Below are positions 41,492 through 57,387 of a stretch of 57,387 nt of DNA, in pieces. The number at the start of each line of letters is the position of its first letter. Position 1 is the stretch's first letter. Source of the stretch: Oceaniglobus roseus (GTDB lineage: Bacteria; Pseudomonadota; Alphaproteobacteria; Rhodobacterales; Rhodobacteraceae); contig NZ_PNOS01000034.1 in the NCBI RefSeq assembly GCF_002869745.1, positions 1 to 57,387 of the forward strand. The letters run 5' to 3'. The notes beneath the pieces are model-generated. The model was not told the DNA's origin. It made no database searches and was given only the letters and a program-made list of their open reading frames with translations. Both the position numbers and the translations under genes were made by a program.

Positions 41492-41521
41492 AACCGCCCG
41501 CCCCCTGCGCCCCGGCCGGGC

Positions 41522-41682
41522 CGCGACGGCTGGACGACGCTTGCCCTCGTGATCGACTGCCACAGCCGCGAGCTTCCGGGCTGGCACCCGTCACGGTCCG
41601 GGAAGGCCACGACCGCTGCCAGGTCCTGGAACATGCCCTGATCAGCAGGTTCGGCACGCTCGGCAAGGTGCCAGGGAATTGA
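41522..41682 (+). pseudogene. IS3-family transposase (OrfB) fragment, frameshifted
   Basis: Translation gives GWTTLALVIDCHSRELPGWH and RSGKATTAA in one frame up to a stop at 41641; the continuation LEHALISRFGTLGKVP lies in the next frame to 41682. Together they match the DDE integrase core of IS3-group OrfB around the first catalytic Asp (VIDCH). Both ends of the gene are missing. It marks the left edge of the gene island. Confidence 0.75.
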
Positions 41683-41809
41683 ACGGTCCCGCCGATGCCC
41701 GGATGTCACCTGTAACCGGACCGCGCCCCGCCCGCCCGTCAGAGCGGCGCTGGACGCCATTTGGCGGCGCCTGCCTGCGCAGCAGGACCCGCCGCCGGAT
41801 CTGTATCGT

Positions 41810-41829
41810 AAAGGCCCCGTCACCGGGGC
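41810..41829 (-). terminator. Probable terminator of the ABC transporter unit
   Basis: Stem gccccg (41814-41819) with cggggc (41824-41829), loop tcac, followed on the minus strand by CTTTA. It lies 15 bases after the ATPase gene stop. The T-tract is short. Confidence 0.5.
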
Positions 41830-41844
41830 GGTCGGCATGTGGGG

Positions 41845-42927
41845 TCAGTTGTTCAGGACTGCCATGTTGTCCGCTTCCCAACCGATCCAGACCGGATCGG
41901 TGCCGACCGATCGGCCGGTTTCCGCGTCAACGTAGGCCTTCAGCAGCGCGTTGCCCTCGCCCACGGCGATCTGCATCGCCATGCGGCTGCCGAGGAAGGT
42001 CCTGCCCACCACGCGCCCCTGCACCGCGTTGGCGGTCTGCGGACGTTCGACGCTGAAGCCCAGCTTTTCCAACCGGACCGAGGCGGTGATCGGCTCGCCC
42101 TTGGCGGGCAGACCCGCCGGCGCCTTGCCCAGAAGGGTCGTGCCCTCCCAGTCCATCACCACCTTGTCGCCCTCGGTGCCGCGCATCCGGCCCGACAGCA
42201 GGTTGGTTTCACCGATGAACTCGGCCACGAAGCGGCTGGCCGGGCGGAAGTACAGCTCTTCCGGGGTGCCGTCCTGCTCGACCTTGCCCTTGTTCATGAC
42301 CACGATGCGGTCGGACATGGTCAGCGCCTCTTCCTGGTCATGGGTGACGAAGAAGAAGGTCTTGTTGGTGCGGCGCTGGATCGACTTCAGTTCCTGCTGG
42401 ACCTGACCGCGCAACTTGGCGTCCAGCGCCCCCAGCGGTTCGTCCAGCAGCAACAGCGACGGGTCGGGCGCCAGGGCCCGCGCCAGCGCAACCCGCTGCC
42501 GCTGCCCGCCCGAAAGCTGCACCGGGTAGCGCGCTGCGTAGGACTCGAGCTCGAGGAAGGACATGATCTCGTCGGAGCGGCGCCGGATCGCGGATTTGTT
42601 CATGCCCTTCAGTTCCAGCCCGAAAGCCACGTTCTGCGCCACGGTCATGTGCGGGAACAGCGCGTAGTCCTGGAACACCATGTTCACGTTGCGCTTCTCC
42701 GGTGGCTGGCTGGTCACGTCCTCGCCGTCGAGGATCACCCGCCCCGAGGTCGGACGCTCGAACCCGCCGAGGATGCGCAGGGTGGTGGACTTGCCGCAGC
42801 CCGACGGGCCGAGGAAGGTAACGAACTCGCCCCGAGCGATGTCCAGCGTCAGATTGTCCAGCGCGACGACTTTGCCGAAATGCTTGGACAGGCCTTCGAT
42901 GCGGACAAGCGGTGTCTGGTCGGTCAT
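41845..42927 (-). CDS. Spermidine/putrescine-type ABC transporter ATP-binding protein (PotA-like)
   Basis: A 360-residue ATPase. Walker A is LGPSGCGKSTTLR near residue 42, Q-loop region MVFQDYALFPHMTV, signature LSGGQRQRVALARAL, Walker B LLLLDEPLGALD and the switch His in VTHDQEEAL. A TOBE regulatory domain occupies about residues 280-360. The CUT1/PotA-like organisation fits import of polyamines, opines or related cations. Last gene of the unit; the permease stop is two bases upstream. Confidence 0.93.
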   Translation of the reverse strand: MTDQTPLVRIEGLSKHFGKVVALDNLTLDIARGEFVTFLGPSGCGKSTTLRILGGFERPTSGRVILDGEDVTSQPPEKRNVNMVFQDYALFPHMTVAQNVAFGLELKGMNKSAIRRRSDEIMSFLELESYAARYPVQLSGGQRQRVALARALAPDPSLLLLDEPLGALDAKLRGQVQQELKSIQRRTNKTFFFVTHDQEEALTMSDRIVVMNKGKVEQDGTPEELYFRPASRFVAEFIGETNLLSGRMRGTEGDKVVMDWEGTTLLGKAPAGLPAKGEPITASVRLEKLGFSVERPQTANAVQGRVVGRTFLGSRMAMQIAVGEGNALLKAYVDAETGRSVGTDPVWIGWEADNMAVLNN

Positions 42928-42929
42928 GC

Positions 42930-43733
42930 TCAGGTTTCCTTGTTCATGCGGCGGGTGAAGCGCTCGGCCCAGATGCCGATGGCGGCGGTCAGGATCAGCG
43001 CAATGGTCGCGATGGCGTTGATTTCGGGGCTCATCCCGGAACGAAGCTTGGCAAAGATCAGCACCGGCAGCGTCGGTTCGTAACCGCCCAGGAAGAAAGA
43101 GCGCACGAAGTCGTCGAAGGACAGCAGCAGGCAAAAGATCGAGGCGCCGAGGATCGCGGGCACCAGATAGGGTAGCGTGATCCGGATGAACGAGATCAGC
43201 GGATCGGCCCCCAGGTCGCGCGCGGCCTCGATCTGGCTCCTCGGCAACGTCGACAGCCGCGCCATGACCACCAGTACCACGAAGGGCACGTTGTGCACCG
43301 CATGGGCCCAGACGATCGCGCCCATGCCGGGTTCGATCCCCAGCCAGCGGGCATATATGCGGAAGGCAATGGCCGAGATGATGCCCGGCACCAGCGCCGG
43401 CAGCACCGTCATGCCGAAGACGGCGGTGCGGCCCCAGAACCTGCGCCCTTCCAGCATCACCGCGATCCAGATGCCGACAAAGACCGAGATCAGCGTCGAC
43501 AGCACCGCGATGGCGGTGGAATAGCCGAAGGTCGACAGGACTTCGGCATCGGCGAAGACCCCGGTGTACCAGTCCAGTGTCCAGGACCGGATCGGGAAGC
43601 CGATGAACTTGCTGTCCTTGAAGCCCATCACCACCATCAGGATCAGCGGCACGAAGACATAGAGGACAAAGGCCCAGTAGACGCAGGCAAGAAAGATCCG
43701 GTTGCCGCGGAACAGCTCGGGACGGTCGTTCAT
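42930..43733 (-). CDS. ABC transporter permease (PotC-like)
   Basis: A 267-residue permease with six hydrophobic helices and the EAA loop EAARDLGADPLISFIRITLP near residue 180. The closest pattern is PotC of spermidine/putrescine systems. Start at 43733 preceded by GGGAGAG; its first bases overlap the preceding permease stop by four. Confidence 0.92.
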   Translation of the reverse strand: MNDRPELFRGNRIFLACVYWAFVLYVFVPLILMVVMGFKDSKFIGFPIRSWTLDWYTGVFADAEVLSTFGYSTAIAVLSTLISVFVGIWIAVMLEGRRFWGRTAVFGMTVLPALVPGIISAIAFRIYARWLGIEPGMGAIVWAHAVHNVPFVVLVVMARLSTLPRSQIEAARDLGADPLISFIRITLPYLVPAILGASIFCLLLSFDDFVRSFFLGGYEPTLPVLIFAKLRSGMSPEINAIATIALILTAAIGIWAERFTRRMNKET

Positions 43734-44716
43734 TGCTTCTCTCCCTTTCGCAGGGCGCTCATCAGCTTCTGGAAGGTCGCCGTGAGGACCAGCGCCGCGG
43801 CGAACATGATCGTGGCAAAGGCCGCCCCGGTGGGCCATTCATCCCCCGCCACGTGGAAGAAGCCTGCGATGGTTTCGGCAAAGACCGTGGTCGAGGGCCC
43901 GCCAAGCAGGACCGGCGTGGCGTAGAAGCCGGTCGAGATCAGGAACACCAGCGTGCACCCCGACGAGATGCCCTCGATGGTCAGCGGCAGGGACACGCGG
44001 CGGAACCGGGTCCAGGCGCCCGCGCCCAGATCGGCGGCGGCCTCGTTCATGCTCTTGGGCAGCTTCTCCAGTGCCGAGTACAGCGGCAGCAACATGTACA
44101 GCGCGGTCAGGTAGACGATCCCGACCCCCATGGAAAAGCTGGTGTACATGAAGGGGATCGGCCGTTCGATCAGGCCGAGGCTCTTCAACAGAAGGTTCAC
44201 GGCGCCGGTATTGCCCAGCAGGATCATGATCGCATAGGTGCGCACGATCTCGCCCACCCAGAACGGGATCAGCAGCAGCAGCAGGAACAGCATCTGGTTC
44301 TTGCGGCTGACGTGCCGTGCCAGGAAATAGGCCACGGGATAGGTGATGATCAGCGTGCAGAAGGTGAACACGCCGGCAAAGATCAGCGTCCGGAAGAACG
44401 GCATCCAGAAGATGCTATCCCCGAAGAAGCGGGCGTAGTTGTCCAGCGTGAAGTTCTGCTCGACACCCTGAGCGACCGGGTACGCATCGGTCAGCGACAC
44501 GCGAATCATCTGCAACATCGGGCCAAGGTGCTGGGTCAGCACCCAGAGGATCGGGAAAGCGGCGAGGATCAGGAACTGGCGCCGGGGCGAGGCCGTGGTC
44601 AGCCGCATCAGCGCGTGATAGGGTCCCCATGCGGCCAGGCGGCCCCAAAATGTGCGGCCCGAACTCTCTTCTGTCATGGCTCGCTCGTCCTGCTGTGCGG
44701 AGGCGTCATACGTCAT
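43730..44716 (-). CDS. ABC transporter permease (PotB-like)
   Basis: A 328-residue permease with about six helices and the EAA loop NEAAADLGAGAWTRFRRVSLP. The N-terminal 45 residues are a soluble extension (MTYDASAQQDERAM and on). ATG 44677 is an alternative start that shortens it. It pairs with the following PotC-like gene to form the membrane channel. Confidence 0.91.
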   Translation of the reverse strand: MTYDASAQQDERAMTEESSGRTFWGRLAAWGPYHALMRLTTASPRRQFLILAAFPILWVLTQHLGPMLQMIRVSLTDAYPVAQGVEQNFTLDNYARFFGDSIFWMPFFRTLIFAGVFTFCTLIITYPVAYFLARHVSRKNQMLFLLLLLIPFWVGEIVRTYAIMILLGNTGAVNLLLKSLGLIERPIPFMYTSFSMGVGIVYLTALYMLLPLYSALEKLPKSMNEAAADLGAGAWTRFRRVSLPLTIEGISSGCTLVFLISTGFYATPVLLGGPSTTVFAETIAGFFHVAGDEWPTGAAFATIMFAAALVLTATFQKLMSALRKGEKQ

Positions 44717-44792
44717 GCGGTCGTCTTTCGAGTGTGCCTGTGCCCCTGCCCCGCACCCGGCGGGACAGGAACAGGTTCGTTGAGGATGGCGA

Positions 44793-45902
44793 TCAGGCGG
44801 CCTTGATCGCCTCGACCGCCGGGTCCATCAGGCTGTATTTCAGCTCGTTCTGCTCGGCGCGGAAGAATTGCAGTTTGGCCAGCTGTTCTTCGGGGAAAGA
44901 GGTGGATTTCCGCTCCAGCTCGGTCAGGTGCGGCGCCACGTCCTTGTAGGTCGAGATGAAGCCCGAGGCCTTGGTCATGGCCGCACCGATTTCCGGCGAG
45001 GACAGCAGCGCGTCGAGGAAGGTGTAGGCGTTGTCGGCGTTCGGCGCGTTGTTGGCGATGTTGAACGTGTAGACAAAGCCGTAAGAGCCTTCGCGCGGGA
45101 TGCTCATCCCCAGAGGGAAGCCGTCATTGATTAGCGCCGCCGCCGGGCCGTTCCACGAATGGCCGAGGACGATATCCTGGTTGATCATCATCTGCTGGAA
45201 TTCGGCGCCGCCGTCATAGTACTTCCGCACCAGCGGCTTCTTGTCGATCATGAACTGCTGCACCTCTGCCATGATCTCGGCCGCGCGTTCGTGATCGTTG
45301 GCATATTCGATGAAGTTGCCGTCATAGCCTTTCATCAGCATCACGATCGACAGCATGTCCTGGATGATATAGGCGTTCTGGCCCTTGTACTTCTCGCTGA
45401 AAAGCGTGTCCCAGGTCTGCGCCTCTTCCTCGCTGACAACCTCGGTGTTGTAGGACAGCACTTCCATGCCGGACAGGATCGGCACGCCCCACTTGTTGCC
45501 GTTGATCGTCGCCCAGTCGCCTTCCGAGAAGATCGGGTCGATCTTGCCCCAGTTGGTCAGCCGGTCCGCGTCCATCGGCGCCAGCAGGTCGTTTTCGATG
45601 AACTGCAGGAAACGGTGGCCGGCGACGGTCATGATGTCGACCGTCGGGTTCGGCTGCTCGGCGGCCAGCAGGTTGAACTGCTTGCCCTGGTCGTCGACCA
45701 GGCGAACGTTGACCTTGATGCCGGTGTCGGCCTCGAACTGCTCGCGGAAAGCCTCGGGAACGAAATCGTTGTAGGTCCAGATGTTCACTTCGCCGCCGGA
45801 CTGCGCCGAGGCGTGGCGCAGGTAGACGGGCGAGGCCAGTGCCGCGCCGGTGGCGGCGGCGGTGCCAAGAAAGCGACGGCGGTTGAAGATCAGTCTCGAC
45901 AT
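44793..45902 (-). CDS. ABC transporter substrate-binding protein (PotD-like), Tat-exported
   Basis: A 369-residue periplasmic binding protein. The N-terminus carries a twin-arginine signal (NRRRFLGTAAATGAALA) cleaved near residue 34. The mature part follows extracellular solute-binding family 1/PotD, with EVNIWTYNDFVPEAFREQFE early and YKGQNAYIIQDMLSIVMLM in the middle. PotD relatives bind polyamines, but some bind other cations. AAGGAGAAACACC precedes the ATG. It follows the opine-dehydrogenase-like gene, which suggests the ligand is that enzyme's substrate or product (inference). Confidence 0.92.
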   Translation of the reverse strand: MSRLIFNRRRFLGTAAATGAALASPVYLRHASAQSGGEVNIWTYNDFVPEAFREQFEADTGIKVNVRLVDDQGKQFNLLAAEQPNPTVDIMTVAGHRFLQFIENDLLAPMDADRLTNWGKIDPIFSEGDWATINGNKWGVPILSGMEVLSYNTEVVSEEEAQTWDTLFSEKYKGQNAYIIQDMLSIVMLMKGYDGNFIEYANDHERAAEIMAEVQQFMIDKKPLVRKYYDGGAEFQQMMINQDIVLGHSWNGPAAALINDGFPLGMSIPREGSYGFVYTFNIANNAPNADNAYTFLDALLSSPEIGAAMTKASGFISTYKDVAPHLTELERKSTSFPEEQLAKLQFFRAEQNELKYSLMDPAVEAIKAA

Positions 45903-45973
45903 GGTGTTTCTCCTTGTTGGTCCAGTGGTGGTTCTTCTTGTTGCCCCGGCGAGGGGTCTTCTCGGTTAGGTCT

Positions 45974-45994
45974 CCAGCGCGCGTCACGCGCTGG
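45974..45994 (-). promoter_or_regulatory. Intercistronic hairpin over the opine-dehydrogenase stop
   Basis: ccagcgc (45974-45980) pairs with gcgctgg (45988-45994) around a seven-base loop that contains the stop codon (45984-45986). There is no T-tract, so it is more likely an mRNA-processing or stability hairpin before the binding-protein gene than a terminator. Confidence 0.4.
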
Positions 45995-47081
45995 CTTGCT
46001 GACGCAAAAGCCCCGTCTTCGCGGCCGCCTTCAACTCGTCCAGGCTGAACCGCTTCAGGTCCAGCGCCGCGAGGATCTGGTTCTCGGCCTCGAAATCCCG
46101 CCCGTACATGGCGGAGAAGATCCGGATGCCGGCCTCGTGCAGCGGCGCGGGATGCCCCGCCAACCGGCCAAGCGCGGCGGTCAGCACCAGCCCGTAGGGC
46201 ACGTCTTCGGTAACATAGCGGCTGTCGGCGGTGGCCGGACCCGTGCCGCCGTTGCCCTGCGCGTGCATCTGCTGGTTCATCTCGGAGATCGTGGCGACCG
46301 GCACGTGGAAGGACAGGTGGAAATGTTCGAAGATCGTCCGGACCTCCAGACCCAGCGCCTGCGCGATCTCCAGCCGTTCGCGGTCCAGCTCTTCCAGCAG
46401 GCGGCCCACCTTGGGCGTGATGTTCTGGCCCTGGGACCAGGTTTCGCCGCGCTCCATCCGGGTGATGTTGCCCAGGGCGATGCCCATGTGGTTCTGCGGG
46501 TTGAGGTTCGACAGCGAGATCGCCAGCAGCCCGTCGCGCGGCTGGAAGCGGTCGCCGAACAGCGCCTGGCACAGCGCCAGCGCGTCCGCAGAGCGGTCTT
46601 CCGGCACGGTGCAAAGGTCGACCCGGCTGCGCACGGTGTTCACCTTGACCTCGGTGCCCGAGTGCCGCCGCCCGGTGCAGATCGTCGTGCCCCATGCGGT
46701 GATCGGCGCGACGACGCCGCGCGCCGCCAGAAGCTGCATCAGGTAGACCGCCCCCAGCGAGGCATGGGAGGACACGATCACGTGGTGCCGGTCCTCGATA
46801 TGCGGCGCCAGCGCGTCCAGCACGGTTTTGTGCCCATAGCCGGGCAGCGCGATGATCAGCACATCGTTCTCGCGCGCCAGGGTGGCCGCGCTGTCGGCAA
46901 TCCGCGGGGTCAGCGTGGTTTCCACCGCGCCGGTGGCGCGCAGCGCCGCCCCCTGGGCCAGCTCTGCCGTGCCCGCGCCCGACGGCGACCACAGCATCGG
47001 GTCGTGCCCCGCCTCGTGCAGCACCGCCGCCGTTCCGAACGCGACCGAGCCCGCGCCCGCCAGTCCTACCGTCTTGCCCAC
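45984..47081 (-). CDS. NAD/NADP octopine/nopaline dehydrogenase family protein
   Basis: A 365-residue oxidoreductase. N-terminal Rossmann domain: VGLAGAGSVAFGTAAVLHEAGHD with the GxGxxxxG pattern, then VLIIALPGYGHKTVLDAL and GAVYLMQLLAARG. The C-terminal domain of the opine dehydrogenase family follows, with SLSNLNPQNHMGIALGNITR, EELDRERLEIAQALG and a His-rich HFHLSFH stretch. Such enzymes join or split an amino acid and a 2-oxo acid through a secondary amine. Direction is unknown: in this context, splitting an imported opine-like compound is plausible. The first gene of its unit, 82 bases from the gene before it, with an inverted repeat upstream. Confidence 0.88.
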   Translation of the reverse strand: MGKTVGLAGAGSVAFGTAAVLHEAGHDPMLWSPSGAGTAELAQGAALRATGAVETTLTPRIADSAATLARENDVLIIALPGYGHKTVLDALAPHIEDRHHVIVSSHASLGAVYLMQLLAARGVVAPITAWGTTICTGRRHSGTEVKVNTVRSRVDLCTVPEDRSADALALCQALFGDRFQPRDGLLAISLSNLNPQNHMGIALGNITRMERGETWSQGQNITPKVGRLLEELDRERLEIAQALGLEVRTIFEHFHLSFHVPVATISEMNQQMHAQGNGGTGPATADSRYVTEDVPYGLVLTAALGRLAGHPAPLHEAGIRIFSAMYGRDFEAENQILAALDLKRFSLDELKAAAKTGLLRQQASA

Positions 47082-47139
47082 ACTTCCCCCTGATTCGCTA
47101 AGAGTCGTCTTCCGAACTCTACACCATTATTGCAGATTG

Positions 47140-47159
47140 AAATCCGTTATGGCGGATTT
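47140..47159 (-). promoter_or_regulatory. Candidate operator upstream of the opine-dehydrogenase unit
   Basis: A perfect 7-base inverted repeat, aaatccg-ttatgg-cggattt, lies 59 bases before the ATG at 47081. It contains atccgttatgg, which occurs again (as ccataacggat) in the kbl promoter at 55470-55480. The repeat ends before the CMD stop at 47164, in the only sizeable gap of the run. Confidence 0.55.
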
Positions 47160-47163
47160 TAAC

Positions 47164-47754
47164 TCAGGAGGTCGTTTCCGGCAGCCGCACCGGATCGCCC
47201 AGCACATGCATGAGGCGGTTCGCCCAGCCGAACAGCGAGGCCGACAGGATCAGGTCCAGAACCTCCGCCTCGTCCAGCCCCGCATCCTTCAGTGCCGCCA
47301 TGTGGTCCGGCCCGGCCTGCGACGGCGTTTCGGACAAAGCCACGGCAAAGTCGAAGATCGCACGGTCGCGCGGCCCGAGGTCCGCCCGGCGACCGTCGCG
47401 GAACAGCCTGTCCGTCACTTCGGTGGATTTCTCGAGCTGCGCATGCCGCGCCGCGTGGACGGCGGCGCAATAGATGCAATGGTTGACCATCGAGGCCCCC
47501 AGCGCACCCAGTTCCCGCTCGGCCCGGCTCATCCCGCCCTTGTCGTACATGATGCCGTTGAACAGCGGCGAACGCACCTTCAGGCTTTCGACATCATGCG
47601 CCAGCGTCAGCACGTATTCCGACACCTTGGTGTTCGAGGGCGTGACCTTCAGCGCATCCAGCTGCTCTGCGCTGGCCTCTTCCAGGTCGACCGGCTTCAC
47701 GCGCGGCTGCCAATGCGGCACGTTGCGGGTGAATTTCGTGATCACCTTGGTCAT
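47164..47754 (-). CDS. AhpD-like carboxymuconolactone-decarboxylase family protein (CxxC)
   Basis: A 196-residue helical protein. The alkylhydroperoxidase core reads SMVNHCIYCAAVHAARHAQ near residue 100, with the CxxC and following His that give peroxidatic or disulfide activity. Its N-terminal part (VITKFTRNVPHWQPRVKPVD) resembles the Avi_7169-type alkylhydroperoxidase-domain group. GGAGG precedes the ATG at 47754. Overlaps the other CMD-like gene by four bases, so the two probably work as a pair. Confidence 0.85.
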   Translation of the reverse strand: MTKVITKFTRNVPHWQPRVKPVDLEEASAEQLDALKVTPSNTKVSEYVLTLAHDVESLKVRSPLFNGIMYDKGGMSRAERELGALGASMVNHCIYCAAVHAARHAQLEKSTEVTDRLFRDGRRADLGPRDRAIFDFAVALSETPSQAGPDHMAALKDAGLDEAEVLDLILSASLFGWANRLMHVLGDPVRLPETTS

Positions 47755-48230
47755 GGATAGGCCTCCTTCAACAGGCGCAGCCCGGCAATCACCCGCAGCT
47801 GATAGGCCAGGAACGCGTTCAGTTCGCACAGCCGCACGATATCGGCATCGGCAATCCCCGCCGCCTGCAGGCCCGAGATATCGGGCGCCGCGACGTTGCG
47901 GGTATCGGCGGCCACCTTGTCCATGAAGGCCACGACCGGCGCCAGCCCCTGCCCTGCACCGTCGTCAGAGGGATCGGCCAGCGCGGCATAGTCGCCCGCA
48001 TCCGCCGCGTATTGGCCTGCCAGCGCCTCTTCGCCGTTCAGCACCGCGATGCGGGCCGCCAGCGCCGCGCGCAGCGCGTGCGACCAGGGCCCGCAATCCC
48101 GTGGCCGCAGCACCGCCGCTTCGGCCTCCTGGGTCATCTCGAAGATGCTCGCGCGCCCCTCGATGGCCGCCCCGGGCGCGCGGCCCGCGCCCAGCCCGGC
48201 GCTTTTCAATGCGGTCGTATCCAAAGCCAT
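47751..48230 (-). CDS. CMD-like partner protein, lacking CxxC
   Basis: A 159-residue protein similar to the Avi_7170-type CMD group that neighbours the CxxC gene. The core ALRAALAARIAVLNGEEALAG aligns with the helix before the active site, and DADIVRLCELNAFLAYQLRV follows, but only single Cys residues are present (RDCGPW, RLCEL) with no CxxC. It is likely a structural or regulatory partner. Start overlaps the preceding stop as TGATG. Confidence 0.75.
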   Translation of the reverse strand: MALDTTALKSAGLGAGRAPGAAIEGRASIFEMTQEAEAAVLRPRDCGPWSHALRAALAARIAVLNGEEALAGQYAADAGDYAALADPSDDGAGQGLAPVVAFMDKVAADTRNVAAPDISGLQAAGIADADIVRLCELNAFLAYQLRVIAGLRLLKEAYP

Positions 48231-49696
48231 CAGGCCACCTTCCCCTTCTTGTCCTCGCAGACAAGTTCCGACGGCACCCATTCGCTGCCGTCCAGTTCCG
48301 GCTTGTCGTAGGCCAGCATCGCCTGCCAGTGCTCGGCCACGTCCTCGGCATAAAGCTTCGACGCGACCGCGCGCGCCATCCATCCCGCCCCCTCGGAGAT
48401 CCCCGGGATATCGCCGCTGACCTTGCCCAGGCTGGCCGACGCCCCGTAGTTGAAACAATAGACATTGGCCAGCCACGGCGCCCGCCCGGGCACCTTCTCG
48501 CGGAAGGTGAAGTCCTCGTTCAGATAGGGAAACAGCCCCAGGTCGCGCGACGGCTCGTCCGCCGGCGGGGTATAGATGTCCCGCCACAGCAGGATATCGC
48601 CCGCCGCCTCGCCGAACTCGGTCCGCGACAGCGGGTCGATGGTGAAGCCGGTGCCCAGGATCACGAAATCCGCCTCGTAGGTCGTGCCATCGGCAAAGCC
48701 CACCCGCACCGCGCCGTTCCGCTCGACGGTGCTTTCCACCGCCTTGCCGAAATGGAAATGCGCATTGGGGTGGCGGCTGACCCGGTTGGTCGAGCCATGC
48801 GGCGGCGGCGTCTGGGTGGCAAAGGAATACTGCATGAACCGCCAGCGCCATTCGTCGGGCAGGCTGGCATAACCGGCAGTGAAGCCGAAAGAGCCGATCC
48901 CCATCATCTTGTTGACGGTGGGCATCTCCTTGCGGCGGATCAGGTGGCGGACCTCGGCGGCGCCATGCTCCAGCGCCTCGGCGGCATTGTCCACGGCAGA
49001 GGCGCCAACCCCCACGACCGCCACGCGCTTGCCTCTGAGCCGGTCGAAGTCGATCTCGTCGGCGCTATGCGCCCAGAAGGACCGGTCAAGCCCCTGCACG
49101 AACCCCGGAATATTCGGGCGGCCGGTGCCGTCGCGCCCGGTGGCAAAGACCAGCTTGCGGGTCAGGATCGACCGCTCGGCCGCGCCCGACAGGTGCAGGC
49201 GCAGCAGGTCACCCTCGGGCTCGACCCGGTCGACGGACACGCCGTTCTCGGTCGGGATCGCCAGCACCCTGCGATACCACTTCAGGTATTCCATCCACAT
49301 CGGCCGCGGGATCTTGTCCAGCTTTTCCCAGTTGGCGGTGCCGAACTGCGCGCGATACCACGCCTGGAAGCTCAGCGCGCCATGGCCGTAGGCCGGGCCG
49401 GTCAGCTCCTTGGGAGAGCGCAGCGTCTCCATCCGCGCATAGGTCAGCCAGGGGCCTTCCAGCCCCTCGGGGCTGCGGTCCAGCACCCGCATGTTGTGGA
49501 TGCCGCCGGTCTTCAGCGCCATCCAGGCCACCATGCCGCACATTCCGCCGCCGATGATCACGACGTCGCTGACCCCCTCGCGGGCGGGCACCCAGTCCTT
49601 GCCCGGCCAGCAGAGGAATTTCAGATCCTCGCGCAACCGCGCCTCCAGCACGGGCAGACCCTGGCCGTCGATCGGGGAAGCGGTGTCGTGTGTCAT
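48230..49696 (-). CDS. Flavin-containing monooxygenase-like oxidoreductase
   Basis: A 488-residue FAD/NAD(P)H protein. FAD motif VVIIGGGMCGM at residues 45-55, NADPH motif VAVVGVGASAVDNAAEAL near 230, and a C-terminal FVILGTGFTIDPLSR motif. The classical FMO identity motif FxGxxxHxxxY is altered; the corresponding region reads RSFWAHSADEIDFDRLRGK. It probably N- or S-oxygenates or desaturates a small amine or acid, but the substrate is not evident. AGGAAAGACGAC precedes the ATG at 49696. The gene lies 40 bases after the MFS gene. Confidence 0.83.
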   Translation of the reverse strand: MTHDTASPIDGQGLPVLEARLREDLKFLCWPGKDWVPAREGVSDVVIIGGGMCGMVAWMALKTGGIHNMRVLDRSPEGLEGPWLTYARMETLRSPKELTGPAYGHGALSFQAWYRAQFGTANWEKLDKIPRPMWMEYLKWYRRVLAIPTENGVSVDRVEPEGDLLRLHLSGAAERSILTRKLVFATGRDGTGRPNIPGFVQGLDRSFWAHSADEIDFDRLRGKRVAVVGVGASAVDNAAEALEHGAAEVRHLIRRKEMPTVNKMMGIGSFGFTAGYASLPDEWRWRFMQYSFATQTPPPHGSTNRVSRHPNAHFHFGKAVESTVERNGAVRVGFADGTTYEADFVILGTGFTIDPLSRTEFGEAAGDILLWRDIYTPPADEPSRDLGLFPYLNEDFTFREKVPGRAPWLANVYCFNYGASASLGKVSGDIPGISEGAGWMARAVASKLYAEDVAEHWQAMLAYDKPELDGSEWVPSELVCEDKKGKVA

Positions 49697-49736
49697 GTCG
49701 TCTTTCCTGTAACTCTGCTGTTCGGTCGCGGCACGC

Positions 49737-51083
49737 TCAAGCCGGCCGGCTGACGGACCAGTCCCGGTGGAGATCGTCGATATGGAAGGTATGGGCATGG
49801 CGCTGGCGCGGCCCATGCGCGGGGTTCTCGTGCAGGTGCGGGTGGTCACCCGGCAATTCGGGATGGTCGTGTGTGCGGATCAGCGGATCGCTTGCGGGCC
49901 AGACGCGCAGCGCCAGCGCCGCCACGCCAAGGGTCAGCGCCGACAGGATCAGCAGCGCCGGCGCCAGTCCGACGCGTGCGCCCAGCTCACCCGCCAGCGG
50001 GTAGGCCACCAGCCAGCCCGCATGCGACAGCGAGAACTGCGCCGCGAAGAGCGAGGCGCGGTCCCCTGCCCCGGCAGAGCGCGCGATCACCAGCCCGCCC
50101 GGCGTCAGCACCAGCGAGGCGGCCAGGCCGAAGCAGACCCACAGCCCCATGTACCCGGCATAGGCCAGCGGCAGCGCGATACCCAATCCCAGCACCGCGT
50201 GCAGCATCGCCCCCAGGGCCATCACGCGGCGTTCGTCCAGCGCCTCGATCAGGCGCGGCACCAGCACCGCGCCGGTCGCGGCGCCCAGCCCGTAGAAGGC
50301 CATCAGCACCGGGTAATGCCGCTCGGCATCGCCGAGCTGCGCACCGGCCAGCACCACCGAGTTGACCAGCACCCAGGCCATGCTCAGCGAGAGGGCAAAA
50401 TTCAGCAGGAACAGGCCGCGCAGCCGCGGAGTCCGACGATAGATCGACAGCCCCGTCAGCGCCCGGGCCAAAAACGGCCCCCGGCGCGGAGCGCCCGCCC
50501 CGGCGGGGAACCGCGTGACCAGCAGCGCCGCGATGGACCCCGAAAAGGCCAGCGCCGCGACCCAGAACAGGAACTCGGCCGCAACCACTTGCAGCACCAT
50601 GGCGGCGATCACCGGCGAGAGCACGGATTCCAGTGTATAGGCGATGCGCGACCAGACCAGCGCGCGGCTGTAGGCGCGCTCTTCGGGCAGCACGTCCGGG
50701 ATCACCGACTGGAAGATCGGCGTGAAGCCGGACGAGACCGCAAAGAAGACCAGTGCCAGCGCCGCGATCTGCCAGGTCTCGGTGGCGAAGGCCATCGGCA
50801 GCAGCAGCGCCATGCGGGCGATATCCAGCCCGACCATCACCCGCTTGCGCGGGCGCCCGGCGAAAAGCGCCTCGGCCAGCGGCGAGATGCCCACATAGGC
50901 CACCATCTTCACCGCAAGCAGGAAGCCCAGGATCTGCCCTGCCGCCGCCGTGCCGCCGATGCGATAGGCCGCCAGCGACATCGCCACGGTCATCAGGCCG
51001 ATCGCCAGAAGCGAACAGACCTGCGCGGCAAAGAGCTTCCGGAAGACGGGATTGGCAATCGGGTTGATCCGGGGTGCGGTCAT
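49737..51083 (-). CDS. MFS transporter with His-rich C-terminal tail
   Basis: A 448-residue permease with about twelve hydrophobic helices, starting IANPVFRKLFAAQVCSLLAI. The cytoplasmic end (last 40 residues) has ten His, including HDHPELPGDHPHLHE and RHAHTFHIDDLH. The His cluster suggests metal binding or regulation by a metal, as in some nickel or cobalt resistance exporters, but the main body is not specific. It sits between the aminotransferase (four-base overlap) and the monooxygenase. Confidence 0.85.
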   Translation of the reverse strand: MTAPRINPIANPVFRKLFAAQVCSLLAIGLMTVAMSLAAYRIGGTAAAGQILGFLLAVKMVAYVGISPLAEALFAGRPRKRVMVGLDIARMALLLPMAFATETWQIAALALVFFAVSSGFTPIFQSVIPDVLPEERAYSRALVWSRIAYTLESVLSPVIAAMVLQVVAAEFLFWVAALAFSGSIAALLVTRFPAGAGAPRRGPFLARALTGLSIYRRTPRLRGLFLLNFALSLSMAWVLVNSVVLAGAQLGDAERHYPVLMAFYGLGAATGAVLVPRLIEALDERRVMALGAMLHAVLGLGIALPLAYAGYMGLWVCFGLAASLVLTPGGLVIARSAGAGDRASLFAAQFSLSHAGWLVAYPLAGELGARVGLAPALLILSALTLGVAALALRVWPASDPLIRTHDHPELPGDHPHLHENPAHGPRQRHAHTFHIDDLHRDWSVSRPA

Positions 51084-52540
51084 GAAACGAGCGTATCCTG
51101 CGGGAGGCGGTTGGCGTAGAACCGGGCGGTACTGGTATCGACGCGGTACTGAGCGGCATAGTCTGGGGCGATCCGCGACAGATTGTCCACAGCCGCGATG
51201 ATCGAGTCCACCTTCTCGTCGCTCATCAGGGCGGAAAGGTTCAGCCGCACCCAGCCGGGCTTGGCGGTTTCCTCGCCCTGTTCCAGCGCCGCGATGGTGG
51301 CATCCGATTCGGCGCGGCCCAGCCCCAGCAGCCGGTGACCATAGGGCCCGGCGCAGGCACAGCCGCCGCGCGCCTGCACCCCGCTCAGGTCGCTGAGCAG
51401 TCGGGTGAAGAACTGGTGATGCACCAGCCCCCCCTGCCCGTCACGCACCCGCAAGGAAAAGATCGGCAGCGCCTCGGCGCCGGGAATGCCCAGCAGCTCG
51501 ATCCGGTCGTTGTCCGCCCAGACCTTCAGCGCCCGCGCCCGCAATTCGGCCTGCCGGCTGTCCAGCCAGCTCTGCCCCAGCGCCTCCTTGACCAGCATGG
51601 CCAGCGCGGCGCGGATATCGCCGGTCACATTCGGGGTGCCGCCCTCTTCCCGCGCCGCAAGGCTGCCGGAATAGACATGCCCCCAGGGCGACACGAAGCT
51701 GACCGTGCCGCCGCCGGGGATGGTCGGCGTGGCACGGAGGGCGATCCCGTCGCGGATCACCGCGACGCCACTGGAACCGGGACCGCCGGGAAACTTGTGC
51801 ACCGAGAACACGACGGCATCCTTCTGCGCATCGGTGCCCGCCTTCATGTCCATTGCGCAATAGGGACCGGCACAGCCGTAGTCCCAGACCGACAGCGCGC
51901 CATGCGCGCGCAGCATCCGCGTCACCGCGTCCACATCGGTCAGGATGCCGGTCACGTTGGACGCCGCCGAAAAGGTGCCGACGATCCGCGCCGCGCCCTG
52001 CGCCGCGATCAGGGCGCGCTCCAGCTCGCCCATGTCGACGCCGCCGGTCGGCGCCTCGGCGATCTCGATCACCTCGGCCCCGGTCTCGCGCCAGGGCAGG
52101 ATGTTGGAATGATGTTCGTAGGGGCCGGTCAGCACCACCACGCGCCGCCCCTGCCGGACCAGCGCCGCCAGATCCAGCAGCCCCGCGATGCGGTTGAGTC
52201 CGGCGGTAGAGCCCGACCCGGTGAACACCACGCTCATGCCCGCGGCGGCGCCGGTCAGCCGGGCGATCTCGGCCCGCGCCGCCTCGCGCAGCCTGGTCAT
52301 GTATTCGCCGCAGAAAGAGGCCTGCGTGTGGGTATTGGCGTAATAGGGCAGCACGCGGTCGCGGATGAAATCCTCGACCTGCGCCAGCGCCCGCCCCGAG
52401 GCCACGTAATCGGCATAGATCAACGGTCGCGCCCCGAACGGCCCGTCGACCTGCGCATCCTCGCCGATCAGCCCCTCGCGGATCCGGTCGTGAACGTCGG
52501 CGCCTTGCAGCACGGCCTTGAAATCGTCGAGCGCAGTCAT
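51080..52540 (-). CDS. Class V aminotransferase / cysteine desulfurase-like PLP enzyme
   Basis: A 486-residue fold-type I PLP enzyme. YADYVASGRALAQVEDFI at the start, GSGSTAGLNRIAGL, TGPYEHHSNILPWRE, the PLP Lys in VVFSVHKFPGGPGSSGVAV and a Cys-rich RGGCACAGPYGHR loop near residue 415. The class includes SufS/Csd desulfurases, selenocysteine lyases and isopenicillin epimerase-like enzymes, and the loop Cys could be mobile as in desulfurases. A simple aminotransferase or lyase role on the imported compound is equally possible. ATG 52540 follows AGGGGATGAC; a divergent asnC-type gene lies 102 bases away. Confidence 0.85.
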   Translation of the reverse strand: MTALDDFKAVLQGADVHDRIREGLIGEDAQVDGPFGARPLIYADYVASGRALAQVEDFIRDRVLPYYANTHTQASFCGEYMTRLREAARAEIARLTGAAAGMSVVFTGSGSTAGLNRIAGLLDLAALVRQGRRVVVLTGPYEHHSNILPWRETGAEVIEIAEAPTGGVDMGELERALIAAQGAARIVGTFSAASNVTGILTDVDAVTRMLRAHGALSVWDYGCAGPYCAMDMKAGTDAQKDAVVFSVHKFPGGPGSSGVAVIRDGIALRATPTIPGGGTVSFVSPWGHVYSGSLAAREEGGTPNVTGDIRAALAMLVKEALGQSWLDSRQAELRARALKVWADNDRIELLGIPGAEALPIFSLRVRDGQGGLVHHQFFTRLLSDLSGVQARGGCACAGPYGHRLLGLGRAESDATIAALEQGEETAKPGWVRLNLSALMSDEKVDSIIAAVDNLSRIAPDYAAQYRVDTSTARFYANRLPQDTLVS

Positions 52541-52608
52541 GTCATCCCCTGATTTGACCGGATCGAGTATGACGTAAATTCTGCAAAAATCTTCACAGTT
52601 GTTTGCCA

Positions 52609-52636
52609 TTGATTTCGTCTTTTTGTGTCATATGAT
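52609..52636 (+). promoter_or_regulatory. Putative promoter of the Lrp/AsnC gene (possible leaderless mRNA)
   Basis: A -35 TTGATT (52609-52614) and -10 TATGAT (52631-52636) with 16-base spacing. Transcription would begin about seven bases later, at or beside ATG 52643. The ATG lacks a convincing Shine-Dalgarno, consistent with leaderless translation. Confidence 0.45.
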
Positions 52637-52642
52637 CGAAGA

Positions 52643-53107
52643 ATGAAGCACAAACCAGATCAATTTGACTTTCGGATCCTCGAAGAGCTGCAGCGCGACG
52701 CGGGCCTGCCCCAGCGGGCGCTGGCCGAGAAGGTCGGGCTGTCTCAGAACGCCTGCTGGCGCCGGCTCAAGGCGCTCGAGGCGTCGGGCGCGATCCGCAA
52801 CCGCACCGTGGTGATCGACCGCGAAAGCCTCGGCGGCGGCTTTGTGGTGTTCTCGCTGATCAAGACGCGGCACCATTCCGCAGAGTGGCTGCGGCTGTTC
52901 CGCAAGCATGTCTCGGCCATCCCCGAGGTCATCGACTTCTTCCGCATCGGCGGCGAATACGACTACCTGATGAAGATCGTGGTCAGGGACATGGCCGGCT
53001 ACGACGACGTCTACAAGCGGCTGATCGAGAACATCGAGCTGGAAACCGTGACCTCCTATTTCGCGATGGAGGCGATCGAAGAGCAGCGCCCGATCCCCCT
53101 GCGGTAG
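52643..53107 (+). CDS. Lrp/AsnC family transcriptional regulator
   Basis: A 154-residue regulator with an N-terminal HTH (FDFRILEELQRDAGLPQRAL, AEKVGLSQNACWRRLKALEA) and a C-terminal RAM ligand domain (FFRIGGEYDYLMKIVVRDM). Divergent from the aminotransferase-led unit, hence likely its activator or repressor, responding to an amino acid or related ligand. No strong ribosome site; see the promoter entry. Confidence 0.92.
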   Translation: MKHKPDQFDFRILEELQRDAGLPQRALAEKVGLSQNACWRRLKALEASGAIRNRTVVIDRESLGGGFVVFSLIKTRHHSAEWLRLFRKHVSAIPEVIDFFRIGGEYDYLMKIVVRDMAGYDDVYKRLIENIELETVTSYFAMEAIEEQRPIPLR

Positions 53108-53114
53108 GGGCGCC

Positions 53115-53160
53115 GCCCGCGTCGCCGGGATCGGCGACGCCCGCGTCGCCGGGATCGGCG
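53115..53160. repeat. Two adjacent 24-base direct repeats
   Basis: gcccgcgtcgccgggatcgg, followed by cg and two more bases, is repeated directly (53115 and 53139). It lies just after the AsnC stop and before tdh (convergent). Probably a simple replication duplication. Confidence 0.6.
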
Positions 53161-53205
53161 CGTCCCCACCGCCGTCCGGCGACCGGGAAGCGCTCCCTGC
53201 CCCGC

Positions 53206-54252
53206 TCAGCGCCAGGTCAGCACCACCTTGCCGGACTGGCCGGATTTCATCGCGGCAAAGCCGTCACGAAAGGCCTCCACGCCCATCCGGTGCGTGATCA
53301 CCCGGCTGACATCCAGCCCGTTCTGCAACATGGCGATCATCTTGTACCAGGTTTCGAACATCTCGCGCCCGTAGACCCCCTTGATGGTGATCGCCTTGAA
53401 CACGATGCGCGACCAGTCCACCGGCGACTTGCCCGGCGGGATCCCCAGCAAGGCGATCTTGCCGCCCATGATCAGGCTTTCGACCATCTGGTCCAGCGCC
53501 TGCTGGCTGCCGGACATCTCCAGCCCGACATCGAACCCCTGCTTCATGCCCAGTTCGTGGATCACGTCGCGCAGGTCCTCGCGGGTCACGTCCACCGTGC
53601 GGACATTGCGGCAGACCTGTCGCGCCAGCGTCAGGCGGTCCGGGTTGATGTCGGTGATGACCACATGGCGCGCCCCGGCATGGCGCGCCACCGCCGCCGC
53701 CATGATGCCGATGGGCCCCGCGCCCGTGATCAGCACATCCTCGCCCAGCAGGTCGAAACTCAGCGCCGTGTGCACCGCGTTGCCCAGCGGGTCGAGGATC
53801 GCGCCGATCTCGTCGGGGATGTCGTCCGGCAGCGGCACCACGTTGAAGGCCGGCAGCTTCAGGTATTCCGCAAAGGCGCCCTGCACGTTCACCCCGATGC
53901 CGCGCGTGCCCGGATCCAGATGGAACCTGCCCGACCGGCTCTGGCGGCTTTCGGTCCCCACCACATGCCCCTCGCCGGAACAGCGCTGGCCGATCTTCAG
54001 CCCGGTCACGTTGCGCCCGATCTCGACGATTTCGCCGGCGAACTCGTGGCCGGTGATCATCGGCACGGGCACCGTGGCACGCGCCCAGTCGTCCCAGTTC
54101 CAGATATGGATATCGGTGCCGCAGATGCCGGTCGCGTTGACGCGGATCAGCACCTCGTCCGGGCCGATCTCGGGCACCGGCGCCTGCACCACCCACAGCC
54201 CCTCTTCGGGGCGCGATTTCTCCAGCGCTTTCATCGTGTTGGGCCGGGTCAT
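53206..54252 (-). CDS. tdh: L-threonine 3-dehydrogenase
   Basis: This 348-residue MDR-family zinc dehydrogenase oxidises threonine to 2-amino-3-ketobutyrate. Catalytic zinc site: [13 protein letters not shown] and [13 protein letters not shown]; cofactor motif [19 protein letters not shown]. The usual structural-zinc Cys quartet is missing: the stretch after SGEGH reads [21 protein letters not shown] 54252 overlaps the kbl stop by four bases, so tdh is translated with kbl. Confidence 0.95.
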
Positions 54253-55436
54253 TGGATCACTCCCAGCGCGCGGCCAACCTTGGCGAAGGCGGCCAGCGCA
54301 CGGTCAAGCTGGTCGTTGCTCAGGGCGGCGTTCATCTGCGTGCGGATGCGGGCCTGCCCATGCGGCACCACCGGGTAGAAGAAGCCCGAGACATAGACCC
54401 CCTCTTCGAACAGCCCGGCGGCCATCTTCTGCGCCAGCGGCGCCTCGCCCAGCATCACCGGCACGATCGGATGCTCGCCCGGCAGCAGGTCGAAGCCCAG
54501 CTCTGCCAGCCCCTTGCGCCAGTAGGCGGCATTCTCGACCAACCGCCTGCGCAGCGCGCCCCCCTCTTCCACCAGGCGAATGGCCTCCAGCCCGGCGGCC
54601 ACGATGGACGGCGGCAGCGCGTTCGAGAACAGATAGGGCCGCGCGCGCTGGCGCAGCAGGTCGATCACCGGCTGCGGACCGGCGACATACCCGCCCAGAG
54701 CCCCGCCAAGCGCCTTGCCCAGCGTCCCGGTCAGGATGTCCACATCCACCCCGAAGTGATCCGGCGTCCCGGCGCCCCTCGGCCCCATGAAGCCGGTGGC
54801 GTGGCAGTCATCGACCATGACAACCGCCTCGTAGGCCTTGGCCAGCCGCGTGATCTCGGGCAGGTTCGCAAGGTAGCCATCCATCGAGAAGACCCCGTCG
54901 GTGGCGATCATCACGTGCCGGGCGCCGCCCTCGCGCGCCGCTTTCAGCTTGGTCTCGAGGTCGCCCATGTCGTTGTTGGCATAGCGGTAGCGCTGCGCCT
55001 TGCACAGCCGGATGCCGTCGATGATCGAGGCATGGTTGAGGCTGTCCGAGACAATCGCGTCCTCCGGCCCCAGCAGCGGCTCGAACAGCCCGCCATTGGC
55101 GTCGAAACAGGCGGCGAACAGGATCGAGTCGTCCTTCTTCAGGAAGGCCGCAAGCTTCTGTTCAAGCGTGCGGTGCAGATCCTGCGTGCCGCAGATGAAC
55201 CGGACAGAAGCCATGCCAAAGCCCTTGTCGTCCATCACCTCGCGCGCCGCGCGGATCAGGTCCGGGTGATCGGCCAGCCCCAGGTAATTGTTGGCACAGA
55301 GGTTGATCACGTCGCGCCCGCCAACGGCGATCTCGGCGCCCTGCGGCGAGGTGATCATGCGCTCGCGCTTCATCAGGCCATCGGCCTCGATCCCGGCAAG
55401 CGTGGTTTGCAGATCGGCAATGAAACGGTCGGACAT
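54249..55436 (-). CDS. kbl: Glycine C-acetyltransferase (2-amino-3-ketobutyrate CoA ligase)
   Basis: This 395-residue alpha-oxoamine synthase splits 2-amino-3-ketobutyrate with CoA to glycine and acetyl-CoA. Features are [30 protein letters not shown] and the PLP Lys in [18 protein letters not shown]. With tdh it completes threonine breakdown. Upstream region holds two candidate inverted-repeat sites and the divergent neighbour is an XRE-cupin regulator in the same orientation (minus strand), 126 bases away. Confidence 0.96.
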
Positions 55437-55469
55437 GGGCGACTCCCCTATTGTGCGAGCTCATATCTA

Positions 55470-55528
55470 CCATAACGGATACGCTTCCGTAAACATGGAT
55501 TGCACCTTAGCGGATGTCTGTCTGCTAA
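55470..55528 (-). promoter_or_regulatory. Candidate operators upstream of kbl
   Basis: ccataacggat (55470-55480) is identical to the complement of atccgttatgg in the opine-dehydrogenase promoter. It begins an imperfect palindrome taacggatacgcttccgta. A second imperfect palindrome, ttagcgga...tctgctaa (55507-55528), follows. Both contain the half-site CGGA(T). They lie 34-92 bases before the kbl ATG. Confidence 0.5.
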
Positions 55529-55562
55529 ATTGTCATGACCCCGTTTTCCGGCCGCCCGCCGG

Positions 55563-56120
55563 TCAGCCGCCCTTCACGACCAGAAAGGCCCGCGCCCGCC
55601 CTTCTGCCCGCAGGCAGTGCGGGACATCGGCGGCATATCGGGCGGTTTCGCCGGTATCCAACCGGTCCGTGGCCTCGCCGCTGACCACCGTCAGCGCGCC
55701 TTCGATCACCGTCAGGTTTTCCTGCGTGCCATGGGCATGGGGCGCGGAATCCAGCACCCCGCCCTCGGCAAAGCGCAGCTCGTAGACCTCGTGATGCCCG
55801 GCGTCTTCGGGCGGCGACAGGATCCGGATGGTACAGCCCGCGCCGCGATTCTCGATGGTCGGAACCTCCTGCGCCCGCAGCACCTCGATCTGGCTGCCGG
55901 GCTGGTCCTCCAGCAATCCGGCGAAATCCACCTGAAGCGCGCGGGTCAGGTTCCACAGCGTCGAGACCGTGGGCGAGGATTCGCCGCGCTCGATCTGGCT
56001 GACCATGCTGCGGGAAACCCCCGAGAGCTTGGCCACGGCCTCCAGCGAAAGACCCTGCGCTTGCCGCGCCTGTTTCAGGCGGGCGGGAAGCAATGAGAGG
56101 ATGACGTCCGGCTTGTCCAT
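55563..56120 (-). CDS. XRE family regulator with cupin domain
   Basis: A 185-residue protein. The HTH is LKQARQAQGLSLEAVAKLSG, VSRSMVSQIERGESSPTVST at about residues 15-55, and a cupin sensor domain follows with APHAHGTQENLTVIEGALTV. Such regulators (PuuR/SutR-like) control amine and amino-acid catabolism genes. It probably acts on kbl-tdh and possibly, through the shared motif, on the opine-dehydrogenase unit (inference). Start MDKPDVILS at 56120; upstream in-frame sequence is not conserved. Confidence 0.9.
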   Translation of the reverse strand: MDKPDVILSLLPARLKQARQAQGLSLEAVAKLSGVSRSMVSQIERGESSPTVSTLWNLTRALQVDFAGLLEDQPGSQIEVLRAQEVPTIENRGAGCTIRILSPPEDAGHHEVYELRFAEGGVLDSAPHAHGTQENLTVIEGALTVVSGEATDRLDTGETARYAADVPHCLRAEGRARAFLVVKGG

Positions 56121-56267
56121 GATCCCGGAAGCTAAGACCGCAACACGCGGCAATCCAGAGGAAAATCCGCAATCACGGAGGACGCGGACCGGGAGGGGGG
56201 GACAATGCGCCGCCCCCCGCATGGGCCCCCTTGGTCAAAAACCGGCTCTGGCGCACACCGTGTGGTG

Positions 56268-56498
56268 TTCGTCGGCTTAAGGCGCCGTGATCCCGGCGGA
56301 AGTTCTCCTCGTTCGCATCAAGGATGACCCGCAAGGCTCGGCAGACCAGCCTCTGTCAGTCCGGGTCTGTCTCGTCGAGCGGGAGTCCGAGGCGGTCGGC
56401 CACTTGCCGGAGTGGATCCCGAGCCATGTCCCAATCCCGAAGCCGGATTGCATCACGGAAGATCGCAATCGCGGCGTCGACGGATGTTTCGGCTCTCG
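56268..56498 (-). pseudogene. Phage-type tyrosine integrase fragment with in-frame stop
   Basis: Minus-strand translation gives SVDAAIAIFRDAIRLRDWDM, then RDPLRQVADRLGLPLDETDP, D, a stop (TGA where homologues have Trp) and QRLVCRALRVILDANEENFR RDHGAL, the central part of DUF6538-type integrases of genomic islands. Catalytic domain and both ends are missing. It is cut at its 5' side by the truncated IS256 element. It is a likely relic of the integrase that brought in the island. Confidence 0.65.
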
Positions 56499-57337: not shown

Positions 57338-57387
57338 TCATGCACTCAGGCCATCCGCGAAATTACACCAACTTGACGGACGTGACC
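56499..57387 (+). mobile_element. Partial IS256-family insertion sequence, runs to the window edge
   Basis: Consists of the transposase pseudogene plus 50 bases of right-end sequence (tgatcatgcactcaggcc ... ttgacggacgtgacc). The left terminal repeat is absent; the right one would lie at or past the window end. Confidence 0.65.

Follow-up and report, generated by a model that had tools for sequence, protein, structure and literature searches.

The window analysed here comprises positions 1 to 57,387 of contig NZ_PNOS01000034.1 of Oceaniglobus roseus (57,387 nt) and contains, at 41845-52609, ten co-directional minus-strand genes with a divergent asnC gene at their head, among them a gene for an opine-type dehydrogenase (odh). 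Along the window the order is potA, potC, potB, potD, odh, cmd1, cmd2, fmo, mfs and plp, with intergenic gaps of -4 to +82 bp: plp/mfs, fmo/cmd2, cmd2/cmd1 and potB/potC overlap, potC and potA are 2 bp apart and mfs and fmo 40 bp, and the three widest gaps (76-82 bp) are cmd1-odh, odh-potD and potD-potB. The asnC start lies 15 or 84 bp from the plp start, according to the start codon chosen. A first-pass annotation of this DNA had described ten consecutive minus-strand genes with short gaps or overlaps behind a divergent asnC, and all were found in the place it gave; the families it had named, including a PotD-like importer exported by twin-arginine translocation (Tat), an octopine-type dehydrogenase, an AhpD pair and a class V pyridoxal phosphate (PLP) enzyme, were confirmed by Pfam and NCBIfam. 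Its boundaries, correct for the ten genes and asnC, are too short for the clade of the window, where tdh, kbl and xre (53206-56222) continue the neighbourhood. The features are as follows.

41845..42927, minus strand: potA-like ATP-binding cassette (ABC) ATPase, 360 aa, ABC_tran/TOBE_2 (Pfam/NCBIfam; with odh in 59/60 loci)
42930..43733, minus strand: potC-like permease, 267 aa, BPD_transp_1 (Pfam/NCBIfam, locus mapping)
43730..44716, minus strand: potB-like permease, 328 aa, BPD_transp_1 (Pfam/NCBIfam, locus mapping)
44793..45902, minus strand: Tat-exported PotD-like solute-binding protein, 369 aa, SBP_bac_8 (Pfam/NCBIfam, alignment)
45984..47081, minus strand: odh, opine-type dehydrogenase (ODH), 365 aa, Octopine_DH PF02317 (Pfam, alignment)
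47164..47754, minus strand: cmd1, AhpD/peroxidase-related protein with C93-x-x-C96 and H100 (TIGR01926, 189.9 bits, cut-off 81.8)
47751..48230, minus strand: cmd2, CMD-like partner without conserved Cys (TIGR04029, 58.2 bits, below the cut-off of 100.75; no Pfam match)
48230..49696, minus strand: fmo, flavoprotein monooxygenase (FMO), Pyr_redox-type (Pfam, structure model)
49737..51083, minus strand: mfs, major facilitator superfamily (MFS) protein, predicted exporter of the NirA/NcrA nickel-efflux family, with a conserved His tail (Pfam, identity, alignment)
51080..52540, minus strand: plp, class V PLP enzyme, SufS-like, alternative start 52609 (Pfam, alignment, model)
52625..53107, plus strand: asnC, Lrp/AsnC-family regulator, divergent (Pfam, locus mapping)
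53206..54252, minus strand: tdh, zinc-type L-threonine 3-dehydrogenase (TDH), beyond the stretch first described (NF003808, 536.9 bits, cut-off 380)
54249..55436, minus strand: kbl, glycine C-acetyltransferase (KBL), likewise beyond it (TIGR01822, 616.4 bits, cut-off 493)
55563..56222, minus strand: xre, regulator, likewise beyond it (HTH_3/cupin match)

The tdh and kbl products pass NF003808, TIGR01822 and NF005394 and narrowly miss TIGR00692 (446.6 against 458.35 bits).

A scan with ODH, one genome per species, returned 148 relatives, of which the best 80 were retained, leaving distant relatives under-represented. For the linkage counts, the window proteins were mapped onto the relatives' loci; 60 loci with at least 9 kb on either side form the full-flank set, and the 20 of the 80 with a shorter flank were left out. 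All eight core genes (potABCD, odh, fmo, cmd1 and cmd2) lie on the odh strand in 56 of these 60 loci, so the cluster is not a product of chance. Four loci depart from this: cmd is absent from L068, both cmd and fmo from L077 and L081, and nearby potABCD from L089. Within the same set potABCD occurs in 59, fmo in 58 and cmd1/cmd2 in 57 loci, followed by plp (45), mfs (44) and asnC (43, invariably on the opposite strand). The gene-neighbourhood comparison proposed in the first-pass annotation thus found the core linked, although the importer-odh and fmo-cmd parts are separate in L140, L101 and L081. The locus L113, from Rhizobium tumorigenes, combines plp-sdo-tauE and an odh of 54% identity with cmd1, cmd2, fmo and an importer of the amino-acid type, so that the gene set is kept there with an importer of another family. 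A second, more diverged LysR-fmo-cmd2-cmd1 group was seen in Aminobacter niigataensis (L089, 683-4147), a few kb from the first island. Judged by their record titles, most hosts are Rhodobacterales and Rhizobiales, with a few others, e.g. Granulosicoccus bins. The spread is patchy: ODH was detected in 15 of 147 relatives (E<=1e-10, own genome included; three only 24-26% identical), in five of 385 sampled genomes of the class (E<=1e-60, own genome counted) and in 17 of 75 genomes of one family, termed f66. The record JAFKDC010000009.1 (L022) bears the name of an actinobacterium, Enemella evansiae, and its island shares 94-98% identity with that of the window; the title is probably wrong, since the same coordinates occur in genome G007, which is placed in the window's family. 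In the accessible portions of the open-access literature found, PMC4575208 and PMC3557214 included, the gene set is not described.

The window ODH belongs to Octopine_DH (PF02317; 130.9 bits, cut-off 30), and its closest solved structure by sequence is N-(1-D-carboxylethyl)-L-norvaline dehydrogenase 1bg6 (best solved match at E 9.5e-32, phmmer). His198 and Asp293, invariant in 16 rows, align with H202 and D297 of 1bg6 and are presumably the catalytic pair; 1bg6 and the octopine dehydrogenase 3c7a share this pair and the family PF02317 with the window ODH but are only distantly related to it in sequence. A plasmid search with ODH returned 233 records, 117 of them from Agrobacterium, and three that were fetched are named tumour-inducing (Ti) plasmids. 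Their odh genes (L136 11995-13077; L137 11965-13062; L138 11995-13098) are 46-51% identical to that of the window, against about 22% for two opine synthases of the transferred DNA (T-DNA), which puts the window ODH with the Ti type. The neighbours of odh in L136 are nocT/Q/M, flavin and 2Fe-2S oxidoreductases, arginase and ornithine cyclodeaminase; those in L137 and L138, under generic names, are an ABC importer and flavin/2Fe-2S oxidoreductases, with T-DNA-type genes nearby. Ti opine-catabolism regions (noc of nopaline plasmids, sac of pTiEU6) resemble the island in combining an ABC importer, a flavin oxidoreductase and the same odh family, a dedicated importer accompanying odh here as potABCD (59/60 loci). 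They also hold genes for the freed amino acid, namely the arginase and ornithine cyclodeaminase of L136, and pTiEU6 carries an asparaginase (PMC6733357, accessible part). The importer family differs, being PotD-type in the island and amino-acid-type Noc in L136, and the island contains neither T-DNA nor a NoxABC/2Fe-2S enzyme; instead it has the FMO-CMD module, the NirA-type MFS protein, AsnC/XRE regulators and threonine/cysteine genes. Neither a NoxABC/OoxAB-type flavin opine dehydrogenase with its 2Fe-2S subunit nor any other 2Fe-2S protein was found when the ten island proteins were scanned. The possibility that FMO is an opine dehydrogenase of the Nox type was rejected, the comparison with eight Ti oxidoreductase genes giving short stretches only (best E 0.003, 49 residues). 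The Ti odh genes adjoin opine oxidases even though such oxidases already cleave opines; the accessible part of PMC6733357, which describes the pTiEU6 gene as an opine dehydrogenase dependent on NAD, states that its function in the breakdown of opines is unclarified.

A link to threonine degradation emerged from the gene that follows odh. The survey covered 114 loci with odh, representing 110 distinct odh DNA sequences (the identical pairs being L030/L135, L034/L134, L055/L057 and L082/L130); six were too short downstream and were left out. Among the remaining 108, the next gene is potD in 71; the other 37 have kbl (seven) or threonine ammonia-lyase (six) next, or no searched gene within 400 bp (24). 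The gap from odh is 42-195 bp on the same strand for kbl and 31-117 bp for the ammonia-lyase. The hosts with kbl after odh are Pseudochrobactrum and a Rhizobiales bin, Sinorhizobium/Ensifer and Agrobacterium, and in Rhizobiales a threonine enzyme often directly follows odh. Ensifer canadensis (L139) carries one uninterrupted single-strand run, potD-B-C-A-fmo-cmd2-cmd1-xre-odh-kbl-tdh, and E. adhaerens Casida A (L140) has the adjacent modules potDBCA-odh-kbl-tdh and LysR-potDBCA-fmo-cmd2-cmd1. In Agrobacterium 1D1609 (L097), potDBCA-odh-kbl is followed by an L-threonine dehydrogenase of the short-chain dehydrogenase/reductase (SDR) type (best solved matches 3wmw and 7eps), which is non-homologous to the zinc-type TDH of the window. 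L117 (8147-11899) and other loci of family f66 have odh flanked by a flavin amine-oxidase-like gene on one side and by threonine ammonia-lyase (NF005600, 623.3 bits, cut-off 496) on the other. The threonine enzymes to which odh is linked in relatives are thus of three kinds that are not homologous to one another. In the window clade xre-kbl-tdh adjoin asnC-plp; in Pseudoruegeria (L096) the side of plp is the same, but tdh-kbl are oppositely oriented and no asnC intervenes, and a relative of xre (41-46% identical) stands between cmd1 and odh in Rhizobiales islands. Overall, kbl/tdh are near odh in 14 of the 60 full-flank loci. An ODH tree of 76 rows (thinned from 114, window included, plus one outgroup; L143 dropped for a stop; midpoint root, with the outgroup and several rows on long branches) places every threonine-linked locus together with the window in one group of 60 rows, to which the three Ti odh do not belong; several of the threonine-linked cases may share one ancestor.

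Taken together, the reading favoured here, though tentatively, is that of a conserved catabolic island that would import an opine-like compound, split it and degrade the freed amino acid, most likely threonine. The proposal of opine import and oxidative breakdown in the first-pass annotation is retained in view of the conserved island and the Ti-related odh (46-51%), and it is modified as to the freed amino acid: given kbl or threonine ammonia-lyase after odh, and xre-kbl-tdh adjoining in the window clade, this is probably threonine, degraded via TDH/KBL or threonine ammonia-lyase. The PLP enzyme, previously suggested to act on that amino acid, is a relative of cysteine desulfurases and is absent from 15 of 60 loci, and is therefore unlikely to be its general enzyme. 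Several points weigh against threonine. No kbl or tdh is within reach in 46 of the 60 full-flank loci. KBL scored above its family cut-off in nine of 18 odh-positive genomes, near odh in four (one clade) and on another contig in five, and the KBL of the window is the sole match above the cut-off in its genome; the TDH and KBL may thus be the genome's ordinary threonine enzymes, near by chance. All ten odh-less f66 genomes checked already have the flavin oxidase next to threonine ammonia-lyase, each with a single ammonia-lyase at E<=1e-60, which makes odh the variable gene in this family. Six Aminobacter loci of the Rhizobiales ODH clade have no searched gene just after odh. The threonine link is therefore repeated across genera rather than general. 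Additionally, we know of no threonine opine, none appeared in the four papers that an open-access literature search gave, and the substrate is not readable from the sequence.

These points lead to the chief and serious rival, on balance the less probable explanation, in which separate operons share a catabolic hot spot with no single pathway: an opine operon (potABCD-odh with fmo-cmd), a cysteine operon (asnC-plp) and a threonine operon (xre-kbl-tdh). Such independence is suggested by L108, with kbl-tdh-xre and asnC-plp but no odh within the 15 kb shown, by fmo-cmd beside amino-acid ABC importers without odh (L101, L102), by odh without fmo/cmd (L077, L081, L097, L117), by the own importer of each module in L140 and by KBL on another contig in five of nine genomes. 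It fits poorly with kbl following odh closely on the same strand in seven loci and with two non-homologous TDH types, and with the inclusion of odh-kbl-tdh in the uninterrupted run of L139.

The best fold match of the PLP model is SufS (TM-score 0.70/0.82), and Lys249, Cys394 and Cys396 are invariant in 20 rows; the enzyme thus carries the PLP lysine and a desulfurase-loop cysteine, as in the SufS type, in a SufS-like fold, where either cysteine could be catalytic. With 115.1 bits against the curated SufS cut-off of 475.1, the enzyme is a relative of SufS and not a member. Among eight plasmid loci with plp, asnC stands beside plp in six, an MBL-fold sulfur dioxygenase in L109, L111, L113 and L114, with a weak match in L112; L113 is the only one of the eight with a TauE-family gene as well. 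In L102, which makes a ninth locus, asnC and cmd adjoin tauE-sdo-plp. Three of these dioxygenases, scanned with NCBIfam, score 526-562 bits against the dioxygenase part of Blh; lacking its other domain, they do not reach the cut-off of 625 set for the whole protein. In L102, L109, L111, L113 and L114, the AsnC regulator, the SufS-like PLP enzyme and the sulfur dioxygenase make up a unit of their own, with TauE in two of these loci; the unit looks like a cysteine-to-sulfite route, a description of which was not found in the open-access literature search. Since the PLP enzyme is SufS-like and pairs elsewhere with sulfur dioxygenase, it probably handles cysteine, and the island AsnC may resemble cysteine-sensing regulators.

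FMO carries sequence motifs that we take to be those of a class B-like monooxygenase, and its model, only fair (pLDDT 74.6), is closest to L-lysine, L-ornithine and putrescine N-hydroxylases (5cqf, TM-score 0.59/0.68). In CMD1, C93-x-x-C96 and H100 are kept in at least 97% of 89 rows, and in CMD2 no cysteine reaches 97% conservation in 82 rows; the two match the Avi_7169/Avi_7170 CMD families (TIGR04030/TIGR04029), both below cut-off. The fmo-cmd trio behaves as a unit, four of seven FMO-fetched plasmid loci having the CMD pair (L101, L102, L103 and L105) and only L105 also odh; the three without CMD hold FMO homologues 34-45% identical. One of the distant homologues (34%, L107, A. vitis) stands with NtaA/DmoA-type monooxygenases and an S/N-oxide reductase. 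The island shares an import-coupled flavin monooxygenase with S-alkyl cysteine salvage (CmoO/CmoJ); CmoO/CmoJ-type enzymes are luciferase-like, unlike the FAD/NAD(P)-binding protein of the island. Organosulfur catabolism, in which an S-substituted cysteine would be imported, FMO and CMD would cleave or repair the sulfur group, the PLP enzyme would desulfurise cysteine and sulfite would leave, appears improbable. It draws on the SufS-like fold with its invariant Lys249 and Cys394/396, on sulfur dioxygenase beside PLP homologues in four of eight plasmid loci (a weak match in a fifth), on TauE-family genes in L113 and L102, and on L102, where fmo-cmd lies beside plp-sdo-tauE without odh. Import-coupled flavoenzyme salvage of S-alkyl cysteine is itself known (PMC10863075, accessible part). 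Yet the island genes include neither a sulfur dioxygenase nor TauE, the genome's one strong dioxygenase match being on another contig; plp is missing from 15 of 60 loci, and the FMO model lies closest to N-hydroxylases.

Records of E. coli, Klebsiella and Enterobacter contain proteins annotated nirA/ncrA that share 38.7-39.9% identity with the MFS protein. The His-rich tail of the latter, noted in the first-pass annotation, was borne out: across 60 rows (window included) eight of its His, Asp and Trp positions are conserved, such as H429, H431, D436, H439 and W442, and NirA ends in the same DDxHxxW. This identity and shared tail end place it in the NirA/NcrA nickel-efflux family, although its genomic setting in the island is catabolic and the metal is putative. 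Opines are iminodiacetate-type chelators, for which reason a metal exporter would be chemically sensible in an opine island. The gene adjoins odh or potD also where plp is absent (L077, L082/L130). Since opine metallophores exist, such linkage could point to opine synthesis and export, as osmolyte or metallophore, with ODH acting reductively and the MFS protein exporting the product. The first-pass annotation had ranked this second, and it is now weaker still and very unlikely: the importer is kept in 59 of 60 loci against 44 for the MFS gene, the odh relatives lie in catabolic regions and threonine-degrading genes follow odh in 13 loci. In opine metallophore biosynthesis a nicotianamine-synthase-like gene stands beside the dehydrogenase, and none was detected among the ten island proteins scanned (Pfam/NCBIfam); metallophore synthesis was set aside on this ground.

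Uptake and oxidation of polyamines or simple amines, to which the PotABCD likeness, a potA passing TIGR01187 (359.2 bits, cut-off 355.6) and the putrescine N-hydroxylase among the near fold matches of FMO might point, was set aside as highly improbable because the PotD-like protein, whose Tat signal scores 19.7 bits (TIGR01409, cut-off 16.7), falls far under the PotD (65/582 bits) and PotF (51/636 bits) cut-offs and differs from E. coli PotD in its binding pocket, with Tyr278 at the D257 position in 89 of 89 rows (window included) and His96 at the Tyr85 position in at least 97% of them, both E. coli positions being, we assume, polyamine contacts. In the accessible parts of PMC10041152 and PMC4809877, the term 'opine' appears solely within a transporter-family name.

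Beyond these subjects, the region 41000-57387 gave 0 matches to known RNA families at gathering score, and control by a known RNA family was set aside. A Mutator-family (PF00872) transposase lies at the contig end (56412-57337) in two overlapping reading frames, which match profile positions 130-246 and 258-377, so that the first third is lacking.

For the favoured opine-catabolic island, the following route can be proposed. The Tat-exported PotD-like protein and PotABC would take up an opine-like N-(1-carboxyalkyl) amino acid, either zwitterionic or anionic; ODH would oxidise its secondary amine with NAD(P), hydrolysis then yielding an amino acid and a 2-oxo acid. The amino acid would most likely be L-threonine or a close beta-hydroxy amino acid, converted by TDH and KBL to glycine and acetyl-CoA. 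FMO and the CMD/AhpD pair may form a second, separable oxygenase module that oxygenates an amine in the imported compound, where CMD1 (CxxC) would handle peroxide or an oxidised by-product. The PLP enzyme, under the AsnC regulator, would take sulfur off cysteine-like amino acids, and the NirA-type MFS protein may export metal imported or freed, opines being chelators of the iminodiacetate type.

The island makes testable the function of the NAD-dependent odh that sits beside Ti opine genes, described as unclarified in the accessible text of PMC6733357, and the non-Ti islands, with their importer, regulators and varied downstream amino-acid enzymes, narrow the substrate to a short list. As a bolder and rather doubtful extension, a threonine-derived opine could be a nutrient and metal chelate that occurs naturally far beyond crown galls, eaten by marine and soil bacteria through chelate import, ODH with FMO-CMD, TDH-KBL and metal export by a nickel-efflux-type exporter; the Ti-plasmid odh would then be a recruited member of an older chelate- or opine-eating family. 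If the favoured reading is correct, opine-type compounds would be an ordinary currency in sea and soil as well as in plant tumours.

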